Shown here: positions 33,033-45,033 of the stretch, piece after piece
Numbering within the stretch: position 1 is the first letter of the stretch
How the letters are laid out: each line of letters opens with the position of its first letter
Origin: Leptolyngbya subtilissima AS-A7
GTDB lineage: Bacteria; Cyanobacteriota; Cyanobacteriia; Phormidesmidales; Phormidesmidaceae
NCBI RefSeq assembly: GCF_039962255.1
Contig: NZ_JAMPKY010000008.1
Coordinates: 186,001-250,000, forward strand
Length of the DNA stretch: 64,000 bases
Direction: 5' to 3'
Notes under the pieces: generated by a model
What the model was told of the DNA's origin: nothing
The model's database searches: none
The model's input: only the letters and a program-made list of their open reading frames with translations
Position numbers and translations under genes: made by a program

Positions 33033-33100
33033 TATCCTCTTCACCGCCGCTGTAGCGTCCAAAACGTTGGCGCTTGCTCAGCAAAGGGGCCGGTCTTATA

Positions 33101-34225
33101 CCAATTACATATGAGTGTGCGCCAAAATGGGAGGTACTGCTAGCCCTTGAGGGAAAACGCATGGGACGCCCGTTCATCGTTGAGATTGCAGAAAGCGAAG
33201 CGCAGTTGAAGAAGTCGCTTCAACAGGCCCGTAGTGCTAGCCAAAAGGAACGACTGCAGATGCTCTACTGGCTTAAATGCAACCAAGTGAGCAGCCGCAA
33301 CGAACTGGCAGAGCGACTGGGCCGTGATAAAGCAACCTTAACCCGGTGGCTTAACCGGTACAAACGGGGTGGTCTTGAGTCTCTGCTAGAAGTCGGTAAA
33401 GCTTCTGGCAAAGCTCCGGCCGTGAGTGGTCAAGCGCTAGCTCAACTGAAGCAACGCTTAGCCCAACGGCACGGCTTCGGGAGTTATGGTGAAGTGCAGC
33501 AGTGGCTCTGTGACGAGTTCGGCTTGAACTTGAAGTACAGCACGGTGCATCAACTGGTGCGCTACCGACTCAACGCCAAACTGAAGGTGCCTAGACCCAA
33601 AAGCATCCAGCAATCCCCCCAGAACCAAGCGCACTTCAAAAAAAATATCGCTGGCGACGAAGGTGTTGCAGCAACTATTCGGCCAGGGCAAGCGGTTGCG
33701 TTATCTGTGCCAGGATGAAACGCGTTTGGGTCTCAAAACCATAGCGGGTCGTTTGCTAACGGCTTGCGGGGTTAAACCCTGTGGTCCTAGCCAGTGGCAA
33801 CGCGAAGCCTTCTATCTCTATGGTGTTGTTGAGCCCTTGAGCGGCTTTAGCTTCTATTACGAGTTCTCCCACCTAGACAGTCTCTGCTTCCAGCATTTCC
33901 TAGATCTGCTCTCGACCGAACTCGGCGATGACATTGCCCTGCTTCAACTCGACCGTTGTGCGGCGCATCGCGCGGGAACGCTGCACTGGCCGGAGAACAT
34001 CATTCCCGTTTTTCAGCCCGCGCATTCCCCTGAGTTAAATCCAATCGAGCGAGTCTGGCAGGCGCTCAAGCGGCAATTACGCTGGCAGAATTGCCAGTCC
34101 CTTGATGAGTTACGCGAACGTGTTGCGGTTGCCCTCGACGCCTTGACGCCAGAGCACATCATCTCCTTGACCTCCTATGACTTCATCCTAGAAGTCCTGT
34201 TTAGCGCAGCTTTATAAGTAATTGG
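33101..34225 (+). mobile_element. IS630-family insertion sequence
   Basis: A 1,125-bp element with imperfect terminal inverted repeats of about 22 bp that start CCAATTAC at the left and end GTAATTGG at the right. It is flanked on both sides by TA (33099-33100 and 34226-34227), the target duplication of the IS630/Tc1-mariner group. It contains a transposase split between two frames. Insertion hit the 3' end of the leftward acetyltransferase gene. Confidence 0.9.
33161..34217 (+). CDS. IS630-family transposase in two overlapping frames
   Basis: The first frame (33161-33718) encodes the DNA-binding half: helix-turn-helix region SSRNELAERLGRDKATLTRW and a second winged part (GSYGEVQQWLCDEFGLNLKY). 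The second frame (open before 33663 to 34217) encodes the DDE catalytic half: CQDETR (first Asp), LLQLDRCAAH (second Asp) and SPELNPIERVW (the Glu). Reading must shift +1 (or -2) near a run of eight A at 33638-33645. With seven A the protein would be continuous. This could be programmed slippage, known in IS630 elements, or a disabling mutation. The stop lies inside the right inverted repeat. Confidence 0.85.
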
Positions 34226-38389: not shown

Positions 38390-39844
38390 ATGACCCCATT
38401 TACCGACAACTGGGCCTATCTAAAAACCGAGCTGGCCTGGCTCGATCGCCTGCTGATGGTGGCCGTATCGCGGCAAAAGCGCGAGCTGCAAGAGCTGGAC
38501 GACTTTGCCTTGTCTGGCGAAGATCGGGTCACCCGCCACTGGTGGAAGGGCATCATTAGCCTCAATGGCCAGCCTAACTACGACAATGCTCGCCCGCCTA
38601 AGACCCAGCGCCCCAGCGGCAGCTATGCCCAACAGCTAGAGGCCCGCATTCTGGCCAGCCAGCGGCAGGGAGTGGTGCTGGCCCTGCCTCAGTTGCGCGA
38701 TCGACTCCAGCTCACCATGTTTGAAAAAAACGTGCTGCTGCTGGCCCTGGCTCCTGAGGTCAACCAACGGTTTGGGCGGCTCTACAGCTATCTGCACTAC
38801 CAGCACGACGAGTCTGACTGGGATTTGCCCACGGTCGACCTGTGCATGCGGCTGCTGTGCAGAAATGACCAGGAATGGAGGCGATCGCGCCCCCTGATCG
38901 CCCCCAACAGTCGCCTGTCAAACCTGGGTCTGGTGGAGTGGCTCAACGCCGAAGACACTACCCTGCTCAGCCGCCACCTGCGCCTGACCGAAGATCTCAC
39001 CACCTATCTACTCTCCGAAGAACCCGACCCCGCCACCCTTAATGCCTGGGCCATGGCCCCCGCCCTAGAGGCGGAGGAAGCCTCAGAAGTTCCGGCTGAA
39101 AGCTGGAATAGCCTAGTGCTGCCCGACCCTCAGCTGGCCCAGCTAAAAACCGTGGCCGCCGCCGCCCGCGCCACCGACGGCACTATGGTGCTACTGGCTG
39201 GCCCCAACGGCACCGGCAAAACCCTCGCCGCCAAGGTGCTAGCCGCCGAGCTAGAACTGCTGCTGGTGATGGTTGATCTGGCGGCGATCGCCCCCGACGA
39301 AGAGGGCAACATTCCCGAACTCGAAGACCTGGTTAACCTGCCGCCCTGCGTGTTGCTGCTCAAAAATGCGCCCCACTGGTTTGGTCGCAACCCCACCATC
39401 GAAGCCGCTTTGGTGCAGTCGTGGGGCATTCAGCGTCGCCGCCAGCCGGGGTTGACGCTCCTAGCCAGCCCCTACCTGCAAAGCATCAAACCCTCTTGGC
39501 GACAGGCCATGACCGGGGTAATCGAGTTTCCTCGACCCGATGCTGCCGCCCGCGAACTGTTGTGGAAGCGAGCTATCCCTAGGGGTGTCAAAAAAGAACG
39601 TACCCTGCGATGGCCGCAGATTGCTCAGCAGCTGCCGCTAACCGGCGGTGAAATTGTTACCCTAGCTCAGACTGCCGTTGCTTTAGCCCAGCAAGCTGAC
39701 CCTCCAGTGCTGACGGTAGAGGGGCTGCACCAGAGCCTAGCCTTGCACCACCCAAGCATGAACCTGCCCAAAACAAAGGCGGCGCGATCGCCCAAGACTG
39801 ATCCCAAAAAGCCAGCGCAACAAACCAAATCCAAAAAAGCGTAG
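38390..39844 (+). CDS. AAA-family ATPase with degenerate Walker B
   Basis: A 484-aa protein. The N-terminal 250 residues are an alpha-helical region found in cyanobacterial and other AAA proteins (WLDRLLMVAVSRQKRELQEL, LRDRLQLTMFEKNVLLLALA). The AAA core starts with Walker A LLAGPNGTGKTLAAKVLAAE. Where Walker B should read hhhhDE, the sequence is PPCVLLLKNAPHWFG, so the acidic pair is absent; the sensor-1 position in LTLLASPYL also lacks the usual Asn. ATP binding without normal hydrolysis is inferred. The C-terminus is a Lys/Pro-rich tail. The ATG at 38390 is preferred; one at 38357 overlaps the VOC gene. Confidence 0.78.
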   Translation: MTPFTDNWAYLKTELAWLDRLLMVAVSRQKRELQELDDFALSGEDRVTRHWWKGIISLNGQPNYDNARPPKTQRPSGSYAQQLEARILASQRQGVVLALPQLRDRLQLTMFEKNVLLLALAPEVNQRFGRLYSYLHYQHDESDWDLPTVDLCMRLLCRNDQEWRRSRPLIAPNSRLSNLGLVEWLNAEDTTLLSRHLRLTEDLTTYLLSEEPDPATLNAWAMAPALEAEEASEVPAESWNSLVLPDPQLAQLKTVAAAARATDGTMVLLAGPNGTGKTLAAKVLAAELELLLVMVDLAAIAPDEEGNIPELEDLVNLPPCVLLLKNAPHWFGRNPTIEAALVQSWGIQRRRQPGLTLLASPYLQSIKPSWRQAMTGVIEFPRPDAAARELLWKRAIPRGVKKERTLRWPQIAQQLPLTGGEIVTLAQTAVALAQQADPPVLTVEGLHQSLALHHPSMNLPKTKAARSPKTDPKKPAQQTKSKKA

Positions 39845-39873
39845 CGTCCGGCTAAAGCCTGCCTGTGAAACCG

Positions 39874-40131
39874 CTACAGTTCGCTGGGGCTATCGGGCGC
39901 AACGACCTCGCCAGGTTCTGGTATCAGCACCGTCGGCTTGTTATCCACTAAATCTGAGAGGCCATCGATCGCTATATTCATGTCGCCACAGGCCGCCTTC
40001 AGCGCCGCTTGAAACTGAGCGGTGTCATTGCCGTAGCCACAGCGCTCGGTGGCGATCGCCAGCCCTTCATTGGCATTCGCCTTGGCGCAGTCTACTAAAA
40101 TTACTCCCGTTAGCGGAGATGAGCTAGCCAT
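39874..40131 (-). CDS. Small acidic hypothetical protein
   Basis: An 85-aa acidic protein with three cysteines (VDCAKAN, ERCGYG, AACGDM) and a Pro/Glu-rich C-terminus. I do not recognise a family. Composition and codon use look like the neighbours, and the position (convergent with the ATPase gene, divergent from dps) fits a real gene. It may have a helical hairpin (AQFQAALKAACGDMNIAIDG). Confidence 0.5.
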   Translation of the reverse strand: MASSSPLTGVILVDCAKANANEGLAIATERCGYGNDTAQFQAALKAACGDMNIAIDGLSDLVDNKPTVLIPEPGEVVAPDSPSEL

Positions 40132-40339
40132 AGCAAGATTATGTCTAAACGGCGATCGATCGTTCGATTTCTAAACTAGGCCCGTTACTAGCCTCCAACA
40201 TCTAACCTGCGAAGGACTTACTACTCCAAAACATCCTCAAGTTAGGGACTTTTGAGGCGCAATGTCCCACATTAGGCAGATGAGACTATTGGGCTACTGC
40301 GGTTAGATGTAGGGGAACGGACTCCGAAGAGACATAACT

Positions 40340-40873
40340 ATGAGCATTAACATTGGCCTTTCTGAACAAGAACGCCAGGGTGTAACCGAAATTCTCAATA
40401 AGGTTTTGGCCGACGCCTACCTGTTACTGATTAAAACTAAGAAGTACCACTGGGATGTAGTTGGTCCTCAATTCCGCACCCTCCACGAACTGTGGAAAGA
40501 GCATTACGAAGCCCTCACCATTAGCATTGACTCCGTAGCCGAGCGGGTGCGCCAGCTCAATGGCTACCCCCTGGGCACTGCCGAAGGATTTCTCAAGAAT
40601 GCTTCTCTGAAAGAGCATCCTGGCGATCTGCCCTCTGCCCAAGAAATGGTTAAGCGCCTGGTCAACGATCACGAGCAGATCATTCGCAACCTGCGCGGTT
40701 TTGTTGACCAAACCTCCGAAGAGTTCCATGACGAGGGCACCTCAGACTTTCTGACCGGCCTAATGGAAGCGCACGAAGAAATGGCTTGGATGCTGCGCTC
40801 CTTCTTGGATGGCGAAGCCTTTGAATCGAGCGGCACCCGCGATCAAGAGCTAGCGACGAGCAACCTAGCGTAA
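40340..40873 (+). CDS. dps: Dps-type ferritin (DNA-binding protein from starved cells)
   Basis: A 177-aa four-helix-bundle Dps protein. The ferroxidase residues His37 (KYHWDV), His49, Asp64 and Glu68 (SIDSVAERV) have the same spacing as the His31/His43/Asp58/Glu62 set of Listeria Dps. The dodecamer oxidises Fe2+ with peroxide and stores iron, protecting DNA. The end EAHEEMAWMLRSFLDGE matches the last helix. The gene has a purine-rich ribosome site and ends before a very strong terminator. Peroxide or iron regulation is likely by analogy; no operator is seen. Confidence 0.93.
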   Translation: MSINIGLSEQERQGVTEILNKVLADAYLLLIKTKKYHWDVVGPQFRTLHELWKEHYEALTISIDSVAERVRQLNGYPLGTAEGFLKNASLKEHPGDLPSAQEMVKRLVNDHEQIIRNLRGFVDQTSEEFHDEGTSDFLTGLMEAHEEMAWMLRSFLDGEAFESSGTRDQELATSNLA

Positions 40874-40971
40874 GTTGCTTCAATCCAGCACTGGCCACTT
40901 TAGGTTAGTACAGTCGTAAATTCTTGAAGTTGGTCTGGTAACGCCAGTCACCAACCCAATCGAGCTTCATT

Positions 40972-41023
40972 AAGCACCCCGCCTGTAGGCTTCTCAAAGT
41001 AGCCTACAGGCGGGGTGCTTTTT
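40972..41023 (+). terminator. Strong rho-independent terminator after dps
   Basis: A perfect 20-bp inverted repeat (40972-40991 and 41001-41020), 9-nt loop and T-run. Confidence 0.9.
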
Positions 41024-41109
41024 GCGCCCATCTGCACCTAACTCCCCATAACCTATGGGAGGATCAACTCACCCATCTCCCCAACCCGCCATCTCCCTCA
41101 CCCTCACCC

Positions 41110-42750
41110 ATGCCCACCGTCACCTTTCCCCTCACCTACCTGCAACGGCTCACCTCCACCGCCCCAGAGCAGCTAGCCCAGCAGGCCTTTGATTATGGCC
41201 TAGATGCCACCCTAGGCGACCAGACCCTAGAGGTTGAAGTCACCGCCGAGCGGCCCGACCTGCTAGCGGCAGAAGGGTTTACTCGCGCAATTAACATCTA
41301 CAACGGCCTATCCCGAACTGTCCCCAATCAGCTGCTCGCTTCGGGTCGTCGGGTCACCGTACAACCTGAGGTGTTGCCCCTACGGCCCCACATTGCTGCC
41401 TTAGTTGTGAGAGGGGCTGACCTGCAAGGCGGCGGGCTAGAGGTGCTAGTGCAGTTTCAGGAGAAGGTGACCCAAACCTTTGGCCGCCAGCGCAAGAAAA
41501 TTGCGATCGGCGTCTACGACCTCGACAAAATCAGTGGCGACCTAACCTACGCAGCAGAATCGCTAGATCAGCTGACCTTTGTGCCCCTACACAGCACCCA
41601 ACCCATGACGGCCCGGCAAATTCTGCGCGAGCACCCGGCGGGTAAGACCTATGGCCATACCCTGTCGGGAAATGACTATGCCCTTGTGCTGCGTGATGCC
41701 AACGGCACCGTACTCTCCATGCCGCCCATCATCAATGCAGCGGGGGTAGGAGAAGTGGATGCCAACACCCGCAATCTATTCATTGACGTCACCGGCATTT
41801 TGGCTCAAACGGTGCTGGAGACCGCCAATATCCTGACCCACAACTTTTTAGACACCGGGGCTGAGGTGCAGACGGTGGAGATTGTCACTCCCCAGGGCAC
41901 TCTCACCACCCCAAGCTTGGCCCGCCGCTCCGTTCAGTTTTCGGCCAAATACCTCAACGAAATTATGGGCACCGCTATTCCTAAGAGCGGCCTGGGTCAA
42001 GTACTCTCTCGCATGGATCTGGAGGTGAGCGGTACCGATGTGGTGCATGTACCTACCTACCGCACCGACATCTTTAGCCAGGTCGACCTGGCGGGGGATC
42101 TGCTAGTGGCCTTGGGCATTGGTACACTCCAAGCCGAACCCCTGGCGGTCAAATTTCATCTGGGGGAAGCCGACCCTTTACGCCAGGCAATGTTTAAGGT
42201 GGGCGACTTAGCCCAGCGCATGGGGCTGATGGAGGTGAAGAGTTTTGTGCTCACCGATCCTGAAATTCTCGATTTGTTTGGGGCTTCTTATGTGCAGACG
42301 GGCAATGCCAAAAGCCGAACGTTCAGCGCCACTCGCACTACCCTGCAAGCGGGGCTGCTAGATATTCTGGCCCGCAACATTAACGCGCCCAAACCTATCA
42401 ATATTTATGAAACCGGGGAAGTGCTGCGGTTCAAGACGGCAAATGCCCCTGACGAAAGCCAGCACTGGAGCTTTGCCAGCCTAGATGCCCGCGCCTCGTT
42501 TACTACCGCCAAAGCCTACATGCAGACCATGCTCAAAGCCCTAGGGTTGAGCTATGAATTGACTACCTGCCACGCCCCCTATTACCTCCCCGGGCGGGCA
42601 GCGACGGTACTGATTAATGGCCAACCCGTCGGGGAGTTTGGCGAAATTCATCCCCAGGTGCTTGAGCACTTTTCGTTCCCTGAGCCGGTCTGCGCTGGGG
42701 AGCTAGACTGTACCGCTAGCCTGCTCGCGGCTTCTGAGCGGCGGCGTTGA
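41110..42750 (+). CDS. Archaeal/eukaryotic-type phenylalanyl-tRNA synthetase beta-like protein, orphan
   Basis: A 546-aa protein that follows the archaeal PheT plan rather than the bacterial one of about 800 aa: no EMAP/tRNA-binding insert and no C-terminal FDX-ACB domain. B1-like start (MPTVTFPLTYLQRLTS, VEVTAERPDLLAAEGFTRAI), B3/B4 editing-type region (KKIAIGVYDLDKISGDLTY, LSMPPIINAAGVGEVDANTR, NLFIDVTG), B5-like segment (SVQFSAKYLNEIMG, VHVPTYRTDIFSQVDL), then the B6/B7 synthetase-like fold (INIYETGEVLRF, FGEIHPQVLEHF). There is no pheS nearby. A normal cyanobacterial PheST is expected elsewhere. Aminoacylation alone is not possible for a beta subunit, so an editing, binding or resistance role is conceivable. 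The leader is C/T-rich without a ribosome site. Confidence 0.85.
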   Translation: MPTVTFPLTYLQRLTSTAPEQLAQQAFDYGLDATLGDQTLEVEVTAERPDLLAAEGFTRAINIYNGLSRTVPNQLLASGRRVTVQPEVLPLRPHIAALVVRGADLQGGGLEVLVQFQEKVTQTFGRQRKKIAIGVYDLDKISGDLTYAAESLDQLTFVPLHSTQPMTARQILREHPAGKTYGHTLSGNDYALVLRDANGTVLSMPPIINAAGVGEVDANTRNLFIDVTGILAQTVLETANILTHNFLDTGAEVQTVEIVTPQGTLTTPSLARRSVQFSAKYLNEIMGTAIPKSGLGQVLSRMDLEVSGTDVVHVPTYRTDIFSQVDLAGDLLVALGIGTLQAEPLAVKFHLGEADPLRQAMFKVGDLAQRMGLMEVKSFVLTDPEILDLFGASYVQTGNAKSRTFSATRTTLQAGLLDILARNINAPKPINIYETGEVLRFKTANAPDESQHWSFASLDARASFTTAKAYMQTMLKALGLSYELTTCHAPYYLPGRAATVLINGQPVGEFGEIHPQVLEHFSFPEPVCAGELDCTASLLAASERRR

Positions 42751-43083
42751 TCTAGTATTTGACCAGGCTAGTTGCAGAAGGCTCTAACAGCTTGGGGTTT
42801 TGGGTTTTGAGTTCAAGGCAGAGGGTGAACCTTGAACTCCGATTAACCTATCACCGTCAGGCTGATCGAGGGCTAATGCTCCGGGTTTTAGTTTGTCGTG
42901 GTATTCCAGCTCCAGCGACAGCTTGCCGCATGATGAAATGCCGCGTTGGGCTGAGGCATTCGGAAGGCTTAGCCTGGGGAAACGCCATAACTAAATATTA
43001 CGGTTGCCACCAAAATTGTGATGCAACCCTTATGCACCCTTACCTGTTGGCTAATCTGGTCGTCATCCTTCAGCGGGAATGCC
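42751..43083. other. Intergenic region with hairpin
   Basis: A 333-bp spacer. A perfect 10-bp inverted repeat (42809-42818 and 42830-42839) may terminate the upstream gene; no clear T-run follows. A 114-codon open frame here has no family features and is not called. Confidence 0.5.
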
Positions 43084-44004
43084 ATGAGCGACTCTTCTAT
43101 TGACGGACCCAGCCGGGTCTACGCCAAACCGACCGAAGGCCACGTCTCCCTGGGGCGAGGGGTGCGTCAGGTGCTATTTTTGGTGCCCATGGCGGTGTTG
43201 TTTGCCCTGCTCTTCTTTGGGCTACCTCAGCGGCAGCGCACGGTGGGGCTGACCGCTGGGGCCATTGTCGCCGTGCTGTGGAATGTGGTGGTGAGCGGGG
43301 TGCGGGTGGCCGCCCAGTGGGAGCGGGGAGTGATCTTGCAGCTGGGCAAAATTCAGGACGTGCGGGGGCCGGGGCTGCTATACGTCGTGCCGATACTGGA
43401 GTCGGTGCAATTTATTGACACTCGCACCCTGGTGATCAATATTCCGCGCCAGAAGGTGATTACCCGCGATAACGTGCCCGCCGAAATCGACAGCGCTCTG
43501 TTTTTTCAGGTGAACGATGCCCAGAAGGCGGTGATTTCGATTCAAGACTTTCGATTTGCGGTGTCGCAGTATGCCCAAGCGGCGCTCCGGGATGTAGTGG
43601 GTGGCCTTTCGCTCGATGATCTGCTGTCGGAGCGAGAGCAGATCCAGGCCCAGATTGGGGCGATCGTGGAAGCCCAGGTACGGGAATGGGGCATGCACAT
43701 CGACTCCATTCGTCTGCAAGACATTGAGCTGCCGGAGGATCTAAAGCGGATGATGTCGCGCCAGGCTTCGGCAGAGCGAGAAAAGCGGGCAACAATTACG
43801 AAAGCGGATGGCGATCGCCTAGCCGCCCAGAGCCTCGCCGCCGCCGCCCAAATTATGGAGGCCAACCCCATCGCTCTGGAGCTACGCACTCTGCAAAGCA
43901 TTGATGGTCTGGGGGCTAGTCCGTCGAATACGGTGATATTGTTTCCGCTAGAGCTATCCAAAGTTTTGGGCAACCTGCAGGCTAAACCTACAGCCGAGGA
44001 GTAG
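43084..44004 (+). CDS. SPFH/stomatin-type slipin
   Basis: A 306-aa membrane protein. Two adjacent hydrophobic stretches ([18 protein letters not shown] and [17 protein letters not shown]) precede an SPFH domain beginning [20 protein letters not shown], with [35 protein letters not shown] and [21 protein letters not shown] coiled coil ([20 protein letters not shown]) and the C-terminal [20 protein letters not shown] match slipins. Such proteins form membrane microdomain scaffolds and regulate proteases or channels. The start at 43084 fits the family. No NfeD partner is adjacent. Confidence 0.9.
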
Positions 44005-44066
44005 TCACCACGCTGCTGGGTGTCATGGTCATAATGGTAAAGATCAATTACGACAGCGAACTTACC

Positions 44067-44498
44067 ATGCGACTACTACACACCATGCTGCGGGTCGGCG
44101 ACTTGGATCGTTCTCTCAAGTTTTACTGCGACGTGCTGGGTATGCAGCTGCTGCGCAAAAAAGATTACCCCGGCGGCGAGTTTACCCTAGCTTTTGTGGG
44201 CTACGGCGATGAGGCCGATCACTCCGTGCTAGAGCTGACCTACAACTGGGGCGTAGAGTCCTACGAGCTGGGCACCGCCTATGGCCACATTGCTTTAGGC
44301 GTAGACGACATCTACGGGACGTGCGATCGCATCAAAGCCCAGGGCGGCGAGGTAGTGCGCGAGCCTGGCCCCATGAAGCACGGTTCGACGGTAATCGCCT
44401 TTGTCCAGGACCCCGACGGCTACAAGGTCGAGCTGATTCAGCTGGGCAGCTCTGAGGGGCACCGCAGAGCCGCAGAGCCAGAGATGGCGGTTAGTTAG
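44067..44498 (+). CDS. gloA: Lactoylglutathione lyase (glyoxalase I)
   Basis: A 143-aa glyoxalase I that isomerises the methylglyoxal-glutathione hemithioacetal to S-lactoylglutathione. The four metal ligands fall at the same numbers as in E. coli GlxI: His5 ([10 protein letters not shown]), Glu56 (VLELTYN), His74 (YGHIALGV) and Glu122 (KVELIQL), the Ni2+-type short form. The start at 44067 is chosen because it gives this exact register; two upstream ATGs are in frame. It is followed by a palindrome that may terminate transcription. Confidence 0.94.
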
Positions 44499-44512
44499 GA
44501 AAAATAGACAGA

Positions 44513-44561
44513 GTGTAGGGTTTCAGGTGCAAGGTTCGGCCCTGCACCTGAAACCCTATAC
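44513..44561. repeat. Palindrome after gloA (terminator-like, repeat family)
   Basis: A perfect 16-bp inverted repeat (44516-44531 and 44543-44558), extendable by two or three pairs, with an 11-nt loop. It sits between convergent genes. Its GGTGCA core and CCTATACC end resemble the sfsA terminator arms. Confidence 0.7.
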
Positions 44562-44580
44562 CTTATACCCCTAGCGATCC

Positions 44581-45033
44581 TTAAAAGGCATAGTTAACTG
44601 TAGCCGTGATCTCAGTGTCAGTATCGCTAGGCTTAAACAGGACGCTGCCGTTGATATCGATAACTACGCTGCGGGTGATGCCCCAGTCGAGCCCAGCGGT
44701 AATCATCGGGTCAATGGCGGAGCGACCGTCGGCATTGTAGGCAACTCCGGCCCCGGCGTAGGGGTAAAGAGCCTGATCGAGGGCGTAGTCGACAGAGATA
44801 GGCAGCCGCAGTTCGGTGCTGTTGTCAAAGACGAGGGAGGGACGCACTGAGAGCGTGGTGCGATCGCCCAATTCAGTAATTCTAGCCTTAGAGTCAATCA
44901 CAAATGAGGCGCTGTCGTTAAACCCAGCGCGCACACCAGCACCCACATAGTAGTCGGGGACTTGCTGGGCCTGGGCTTGGGATGCCACAGCACCCACCAC
45001 CGCCACAGACAATAGGGCTACATTCAGTTTCAT
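44581..45033 (-). CDS. Small outer-membrane beta-barrel candidate
   Basis: A 150-aa exported protein. A signal peptide (MKLNVALLSVAVVGAVASQA, cleavage after AQA) is followed by alternating amphipathic strands (YYVGAGVRAGF, RTTLSVRPSLVFD, TELRLPISVDYAL, YPYAGAGVAYN, PMITAGLDWGI, VVIDINGSVLF, ITATVNYAF). The C-terminal Phe is the usual beta-signal. About eight strands would fit an OmpA/OmpX-sized barrel. AGGAGG upstream places the start at 45033 rather than two in-frame codons earlier. The function is unknown. Confidence 0.75.
   Translation of the reverse strand: MKLNVALLSVAVVGAVASQAQAQQVPDYYVGAGVRAGFNDSASFVIDSKARITELGDRTTLSVRPSLVFDNSTELRLPISVDYALDQALYPYAGAGVAYNADGRSAIDPMITAGLDWGITRSVVIDINGSVLFKPSDTDTEITATVNYAF

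Follow-up and report, generated by a model that had tools for sequence, protein, structure and literature searches.

The gene at positions 41110-42750 of the window, the 64,000-nucleotide stretch of Leptolyngbya subtilissima AS-A7 DNA analysed here, very likely encodes one subunit of a complete second phenylalanyl-tRNA synthetase (PheRS) of archaeal type. Archaeal-type pheS and pheT were found beside an intact bacterial pheS and pheT, indicating that this genome encodes two complete PheRSs.

Results

The window encodes an archaeal-type PheRS beta subunit

The following features, all on the plus strand, were assigned in the pheT region.

40973-41024, +: terminator-like hairpin between a Dps-like gene and pheT, read from the sequence (19-bp perfect stem, 9-nt loop, T run)
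41110-42750, +: archaeal-type pheT, predicted beta subunit of the second PheRS, 546 aa (TIGR00471, PDB matches, omega)
41218-41307, +: B1 domain, part recognised by Pfam (aa 37-66; PF18262, 22.6 bits, below the cut-off of 26.8)
41446-41829, +: B3/4 editing domain (aa 113-240; PF03483, 25.4 bits, below the cut-off of 29.3)
41932-42117, +: B5 domain (aa 275-336; PF03484, 44 bits)
42163-42708, +: catalytic-like module B6-B7 (CLM; aa 352-533; PF17759, 123.9 bits)

Judged from its sequence, the product of 41110-42750 is a full-length PheRS beta subunit of the archaeal/eukaryotic type. The archaeal PheT model TIGR00471 (pheT_arch) matched residues 1-535 with 350.1 bits against a cut-off of 282.65, in agreement with the first-pass annotation, which had described a 546-aa reading frame following archaeal/eukaryotic PheT from end to end. 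The bacterial model TIGR00472 scored 121.2 bits, below its cut-off of 402.65, with its best alignment over residues 271-540. B1 fell under the Pfam cut-off, yet the TIGR00471 alignment starts at residue 1. The B6-B7 module is the alpha-beta interface in known PheRSs. Neither the tRNA_bind domain (B2) nor FDX-ACB (B8) was found in the window protein in a Pfam scan at E values up to 1, confirming that the tRNA-binding insert and C-terminal anticodon domain of bacterial PheT are missing; the bacterial PheT encoded elsewhere in this genome has both.

The closest solved relatives by sequence were human PheT (3l4g_B, 1e-52), an N-terminal fragment from Pyrococcus horikoshii (2cxi, 1.5e-47) and other eukaryotic cytosolic PheT. 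Over the B1-B5 part (first 336 residues), Pyrococcus scored 166.7 bits compared to 125.7 bits for human. The AlphaFold model was weak (mean pLDDT 67.0, pTM 0.49) and was used as support only; its top PDB match was human PheT 3l4g_B.

A partner alpha subunit and a bacterial PheRS are encoded in the same genome

PheT had been annotated as solitary, with no pheS beside it. Locally this held, as no pheS was present among the ORFs within 6 kb of window pheT. A profile search of the whole genome with the PheS core domain, however, returned two genes, a bacterial pheS on contig C12 and a second pheS on contig C9 (locus L004). The C9 gene is of archaeal type (NF003210, 414.6 bits; cut-off 350), its product 481 aa long counted from the likely start, and a solitary PheT was ruled out by this finding. 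Bacterial pheT lies on contig C1 (TIGR00472, 766.3 bits), so that four PheRS genes occupy four contigs. The search proposed with the annotation, for the bacterial pair and any second pheS, thus recovered the bacterial pair as well as an archaeal-type pheS that speaks against PheT acting solo. Of two observations that together would have counted against the annotation's reading, an archaeal-type pheS elsewhere in the genome was found; bacterial pheT was not missing.

Contamination was also ruled out. The contig with archaeal-type pheT is 333 kb long, and several near relatives have the same gene order there. Archaeal-type pheS lies on a 330-kb contig, and its adjoining histidine-kinase-like ORF (named by eye) is also there in several relatives. 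Near-identical loci in named cyanobacterial records bear out the cyanobacterial placement of this archaeal-type PheT.

Catalytic and editing residues are conserved

Residues were mapped by alignment, PheT on Pyrococcus 2cxi and PheS on the human and Pyrococcus chains. PheT A132 and N209, in the B3/4 domain, align with P. horikoshii A141 and N217, and were kept in 33/33 relatives (2 gaps) and 35/35, respectively; the mapping of the editing site that had been suggested, done here by alignment to the archaeal chain, gave a conserved site. PheT L194, S203, D226 and T228, which we take to be the positions of P. horikoshii editing-site residues, were kept in 35, 34, 34 and 35 of 35 PheT proteins. 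The exception was G008, which carries S203C and D226E in its editing domain. PheS A453, N408, Y410 and F436 align with human residues 456, 410, 412 and 438 and, together with the class II motif residues R356, E358 and R460, were kept in 34/34. The pocket formed by N408/Y410/F436 is of the human/archaeal kind, in contrast to the Phe pair of bacterial PheRS. Editing or other roles are described for A141, Drosophila A456 and P. horikoshii A463 (PMC4263187, in extract), and for N217, N410, Y412 and F438 (PMC3275996, in extract).

Archaeal-type pheS and pheT occur together

A class-level sample of 388 genomes was used, 25 in the window's genus and 363 outside it; the archaeal-type pheS model was searched at E values up to 1e-90. 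TIGR00471 scored above cut-off in 32/388 genomes. Three further genomes fell below it and were counted as archaeal-type, two of them (G386 and G371) because pheT is cut by a contig end. The third, G008, has the most divergent archaeal-type PheT seen (locus L185, G008:C1:948712-950334; 255.2 bits). NF003210 was over cut-off in 34/388 genomes. At the thresholds used, both genes were present in 34 of the 388 genomes and neither in 353; G341 (86% complete) was alone in having PheT without PheS, and no genome had PheS without PheT.

Within the window's genus, archaeal-type PheT was present in 25/25 genomes, and in a 26th genus genome (G390) a bacterial-model match had a score and frame length fitting archaeal-type PheT. 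Archaeal-type PheS was seen in 24/26, missing in G341 (86% complete) and G390 (84% complete). Outside the genus, the pair occurred in 10/363 genomes. Elsewhere in the family, archaeal-type PheS was found in genera g7 (1/1), g8 (2/4), g11 (1/1) and g13 (1/1), and was not found in the other nine family genera sampled. A phylum sample of 292 genomes, which does not include the other known carriers, contained archaeal-type PheS only in the window's genome. The window's genus appears to be Nodosilinea (including N. nodulosa PCC 7104, FACHB-131 and LEGE strains), and further carriers appear to include Leptolyngbya sp. PCC 6406, Leptolyngbya sp. SIO4C1, Oculatellaceae Prado106 and more leptolyngbyoid cyanobacteria.

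One viral-contig scan with PheS returned no relative. A plasmid tblastn with PheT gave 31 records, all below 60% identity, two of which covered at least 80% of the query at 22-23%; no archaeal-type gene was recognised among the best 30 of the 31 records.

That PheT works without an alpha subunit, as a free-standing trans-editing factor or binding protein, is hardly credible on this evidence. pheS does not adjoin window pheT, two genus genomes (84-86% complete) lack an archaeal-type PheS match, and whole synthetases, among them PheRS, are described as editing in trans (PMC4787780, in extract). However, archaeal-type PheS is encoded here, the two genes co-occur in 34/35 genomes having either, and they are adjacent in five; PheT retains its B6-B7 interface module, and PheS its catalytic residues. 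Moreover, no editing gap is visible, since the bacterial PheT of this genome retains its own B3/4 domain (222.3 bits).

The bacterial PheRS is retained

Bacterial pheT and pheS were both present in 26/26 genomes of the window's genus, with both genes broken by frame changes in G390, pheT partial in G338 and pheT split over two contigs in G377. The bacterial pair was also sought in a set of 17 genomes comprising 13 carriers of archaeal-type PheT (G000, G214, G371, G338, G128, G148, G308, G042, G173, G240, G008, G386 and G341) and four non-carriers (G161, G061, G281 and G380). Among the carriers, bacterial pheS was found in 13/13 and bacterial pheT in 12/13, the latter partial in G338 and G214. 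The one carrier in which no bacterial pheT was seen, G371, has bacterial pheS and is assembled in about 910 contigs. Complete replacement of the bacterial PheRS was ruled out by these counts.

Two side observations were made in these genomes. G161 (locus L195) is a cyanobacterial genome of 99% completeness that has bacterial pheS and matched neither PheT model. G240 carries a second, partial bacterial PheT (C66:41523-42884, locus L109), 53% identical to the full one beside which it occurs; this extra gene may be contamination (5%).

Both archaeal-type genes are under purifying selection

Omega was estimated by the Nei-Gojobori method from pairs with dS of 0.1-1.2 only (170/595 PheT pairs and 238/561 PheS pairs). 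Median omega was 0.1145 for PheT (maximum 0.29) and 0.1075 for PheS (maximum 0.306), showing purifying selection on both archaeal-type genes. The PheT and PheS distance matrices were correlated at r = 0.935 across 34 genomes, a value reached in 0/5000 permutations; archaeal-type and bacterial PheT distances gave r = 0.731 across 9 genomes.

At short range, dN of the archaeal-type subunits was about 1.6 to 5 times that of the bacterial ones. Alpha dN between G000 and G338 was 0.086 for the archaeal type compared to 0.017 for the bacterial, and beta dN was 0.079 compared to 0.033 between G173 and G240 and 0.110 compared to 0.067 between G000 and G341. The bacterial pair, slower to evolve at short range, is probably the housekeeper. 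At longer distances the archaeal-type subunits were not always faster: between G000 and G042, archaeal-type and bacterial dN were about equal for alpha (0.216 and 0.211) and beta (0.280 and 0.297). Between G042 and G000, and between G042 and other family members, the archaeal-type subunits are more alike than the bacterial ones predict, which hints at transfer between cyanobacteria. We suspect some such transfer, although the argument is weak and functional saturation may be at work. In the tree, G042 joined G128 with low support (0.555). The archaeal-type PheRS itself appears to have been acquired horizontally from another domain, perhaps independently of the spirochaetes.

These data bear on the idea that the pair is passing redundancy, an acquired homeoallele midway in a slow replacement of the bacterial PheRS and without special role. 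Spirochaetes completed such a replacement (PMC3191353, in extract), and G371 has no visible bacterial pheT. Yet G371 keeps bacterial pheS in its fragmented assembly, the bacterial genes persist throughout the genus (broken up in G390; pheT partial in G377 and G338), the bacterial subunits are the slower-evolving ones at short range, and the archaeal-type pair is held by purifying selection. We consider passing redundancy improbable.

Gene order varies between genera

Archaeal-type pheS and pheT are neighbours in five genomes (G173, G240, G308, G042 and G214), separated by about 9-230 nt. In genomes of the window's genus whose assembly allows a decision, the two genes do not adjoin: G264 has them on separate large contigs, and the distance between them is about 460 kb in G298 and 1.75 Mb in G243. 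In 29 pheT contexts compared, gene order was common to near relatives only and differed between genera. Near relatives share a Dps-like gene upstream and SPFH- and glyoxalase-like genes downstream, with a helicase-like neighbour as well (names by eye). The terminator-like hairpin at 40973-41024 separates pheT from the Dps-like gene, and pheT is therefore probably its own transcription unit. The hairpin was missed by the scan tool, probably since the loop limit was 8. No Rfam match over the gathering score was found in 39000-45000. Elsewhere in the window, two overlapping transposase-like ORFs at 33074-34217 (+) are apparently split by a frameshift; we take the transposase to be of the IS630 type.

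No conserved biosynthetic or resistance neighbour was recognised within 6 kb of pheT (29 contexts, by eye, several ending at contig ends), and no neighbour in these contexts hinted at a reason for retention. This weighs on a self-protection role, although a resistance gene may also lie unlinked. In such a role the second PheRS would withstand an inhibitor or Phe analogue produced by the cyanobacterium itself or by organisms around it. Resistance to a metabolite resembling Phe, as raised in the first-pass annotation, would concern the whole second synthetase rather than a solo protein. Inhibitor-insensitive synthetases are distantly related second copies (PMC9437257, in extract), and the alpha pocket differs from the bacterial one in the way described above. 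Against this, the genes near pheT are ordinary-looking in contexts that vary between genera, presence throughout a genus is less like a strain-specific resistance gene, and no paper on a PheRS with self-resistance was found in the open-access literature. We regard self-protection as an unlikely explanation.

A single tRNA-Phe, nearly the same as in genera lacking the enzyme

The genome gave 41 tRNA matches with one tRNA-Phe(GAA) (150/179 first-look candidates scored), and BLAST likewise found one full-length tRNA-Phe copy. This tRNA reads G34, A35, A36 and A73, the common identity set, with U20 as in E. coli compared to G20 in A. pernix. A 100% full-length match to it exists in 18/26 genus genomes, and genera g2 and g6, which lack the enzyme, match it at 99%; two full-length copies are present in each of G148 and G329. 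With nearly the same tRNA-Phe in genera lacking the archaeal-type enzyme, there was no sign of a private tRNA going with it, and a special tRNA-Phe for the archaeal-type PheRS was ruled out.

The last 47 nt of tRNA-Phe (C15:20707-20779) are repeated at 100% at C15:72925-72971, about 52 kb away, and related stretches of 42-57 nt are found in many relatives, whether or not these carry archaeal-type PheRS. The repeated ends resemble att sites, as an integrative element at tRNA-Phe would have.

PheRS and tRNA-Phe of the archaeal/eukaryotic kind are said not to cross-react with their bacterial counterparts (PMC3275996, in extract). This orthogonality, together with a tRNA-Phe that is only of bacterial type and near-identical in enzyme-free genera, would suit an archaeal-type PheRS that has given up charging tRNA-Phe and acts on a different substrate or RNA. 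Retention of the class II motif, Phe-pocket and editing residues and passage of both the NF003210 and TIGR00471 equivalog cut-offs argue otherwise, and we regard the loss of tRNA-Phe charging as very unlikely.

Discussion

A complete second PheRS of archaeal type, working beside the bacterial one, is our preferred reading. The beta subunit from the window and the alpha subunit from C9 would be expected to assemble into an (alpha-beta)2 enzyme, as is usual for PheRS. The predicted enzyme would attach Phe to the bacterial-type tRNA-Phe(GAA) of the cell, and we propose that mischarged Tyr is removed in its B3/4 site. Sharing of tRNA-Phe between the archaeal-type and bacterial PheRS would be the most economical reading. 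Whether the archaeal-type PheRS is an accessory enzyme with a conditional role seems to us evenly balanced. If so, it would be used when a differing property matters, such as the amino-acid pocket, editing range, inhibitor sensitivity or stress tolerance.

m-Tyr, which arises by oxidation of Phe, offers one lead: against it two PheRSs together might, speculatively, cover more. E. coli PheRS clears a non-coded amino acid of this kind (PMC4066437, in extract). Yeast cytosolic PheRS, of the archaeal/eukaryotic type, is reported to discriminate Phe from m-Tyr in activation 71-fold, compared to 35-fold for E. coli; it does charge m-Tyr, however, its editing of m-Tyr is poorer than that of p-Tyr, and yeast suffers from m-Tyr toxicity. 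Human cytosolic PheRS shows weaker m-Tyr binding and no hydrolysis of m-Tyr-tRNA (PMC3275996, in extract). Given this behaviour in yeast and human, the archaeal-type enzyme is not necessarily the better one against m-Tyr. We think it less likely than not, yet conceivable, that two PheRSs from different domains of life stably share one tRNA-Phe in this lineage, with the archaeal-type enzyme adding a different amino-acid pocket and editing range as a conditional quality-control partner, for example against oxidised phenylalanine accumulating in photosynthetic cells.

Duplicated synthetases are common (PMC4787780 and PMC9437257, in extract). Spirochaeta, Borrelia and Treponema have an archaeal-type PheRS ascribed to transfer from archaea (Andam and Gogarten 2011, PMC3191353, in extract), and the same source indicates that such an enzyme can serve a bacterium. 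The spirochaete enzymes too pair archaeal-type alpha and beta subunits in bacteria, with a beta subunit of 514-573 aa (546 here). Unlike in the spirochaetes, where the bacterial PheRS was replaced, both enzymes are retained here, the subunit genes are apart in the window's genus, and alpha is shorter (481 aa from the likely start, compared to 513-528 aa in spirochaetes). Compared to archaeal PheRS, defined by TIGR00471 and NF003210, both equivalog cut-offs are passed and the domain order and catalytic and editing residues match, whereas the host is a cyanobacterium with a bacterial-type tRNA-Phe bearing U20.

Anabaena has two threonyl-tRNA synthetases, T1 and T2, and is likewise a cyanobacterium that keeps a pair of synthetases for a single amino acid, of which the second acts under low zinc (PMC4787780, in extract). 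T1 and T2, however, form mixed dimers according to the same paper, and mixing of archaeal-type and bacterial PheRS subunits seems unlikely. The SerRS, IleRS and TrpRS that are insensitive to albomycin, mupirocin and indolmycin, respectively, are also evolutionarily distant second copies beside a housekeeper (PMC9437257, in extract); in contrast, no inhibitor gene cluster was recognised here and there is no known ligand. Among the matches listed from the open-access literature, neither archaeal-type PheRS in cyanobacteria nor its coexistence with bacterial PheRS was described. The cyanobacterial enzyme may already be in print or in automatic annotation.

Cyanobacteria are a further bacterial home of archaeal-type PheRS, at a stage of coexistence that spirochaetes have passed. 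A genus with cultured strains that keeps both enzymes raises the question of whether an archaeal-type PheRS can read bacterial tRNA-Phe in its native cell, and of what advantage maintains two synthetases of different origin.
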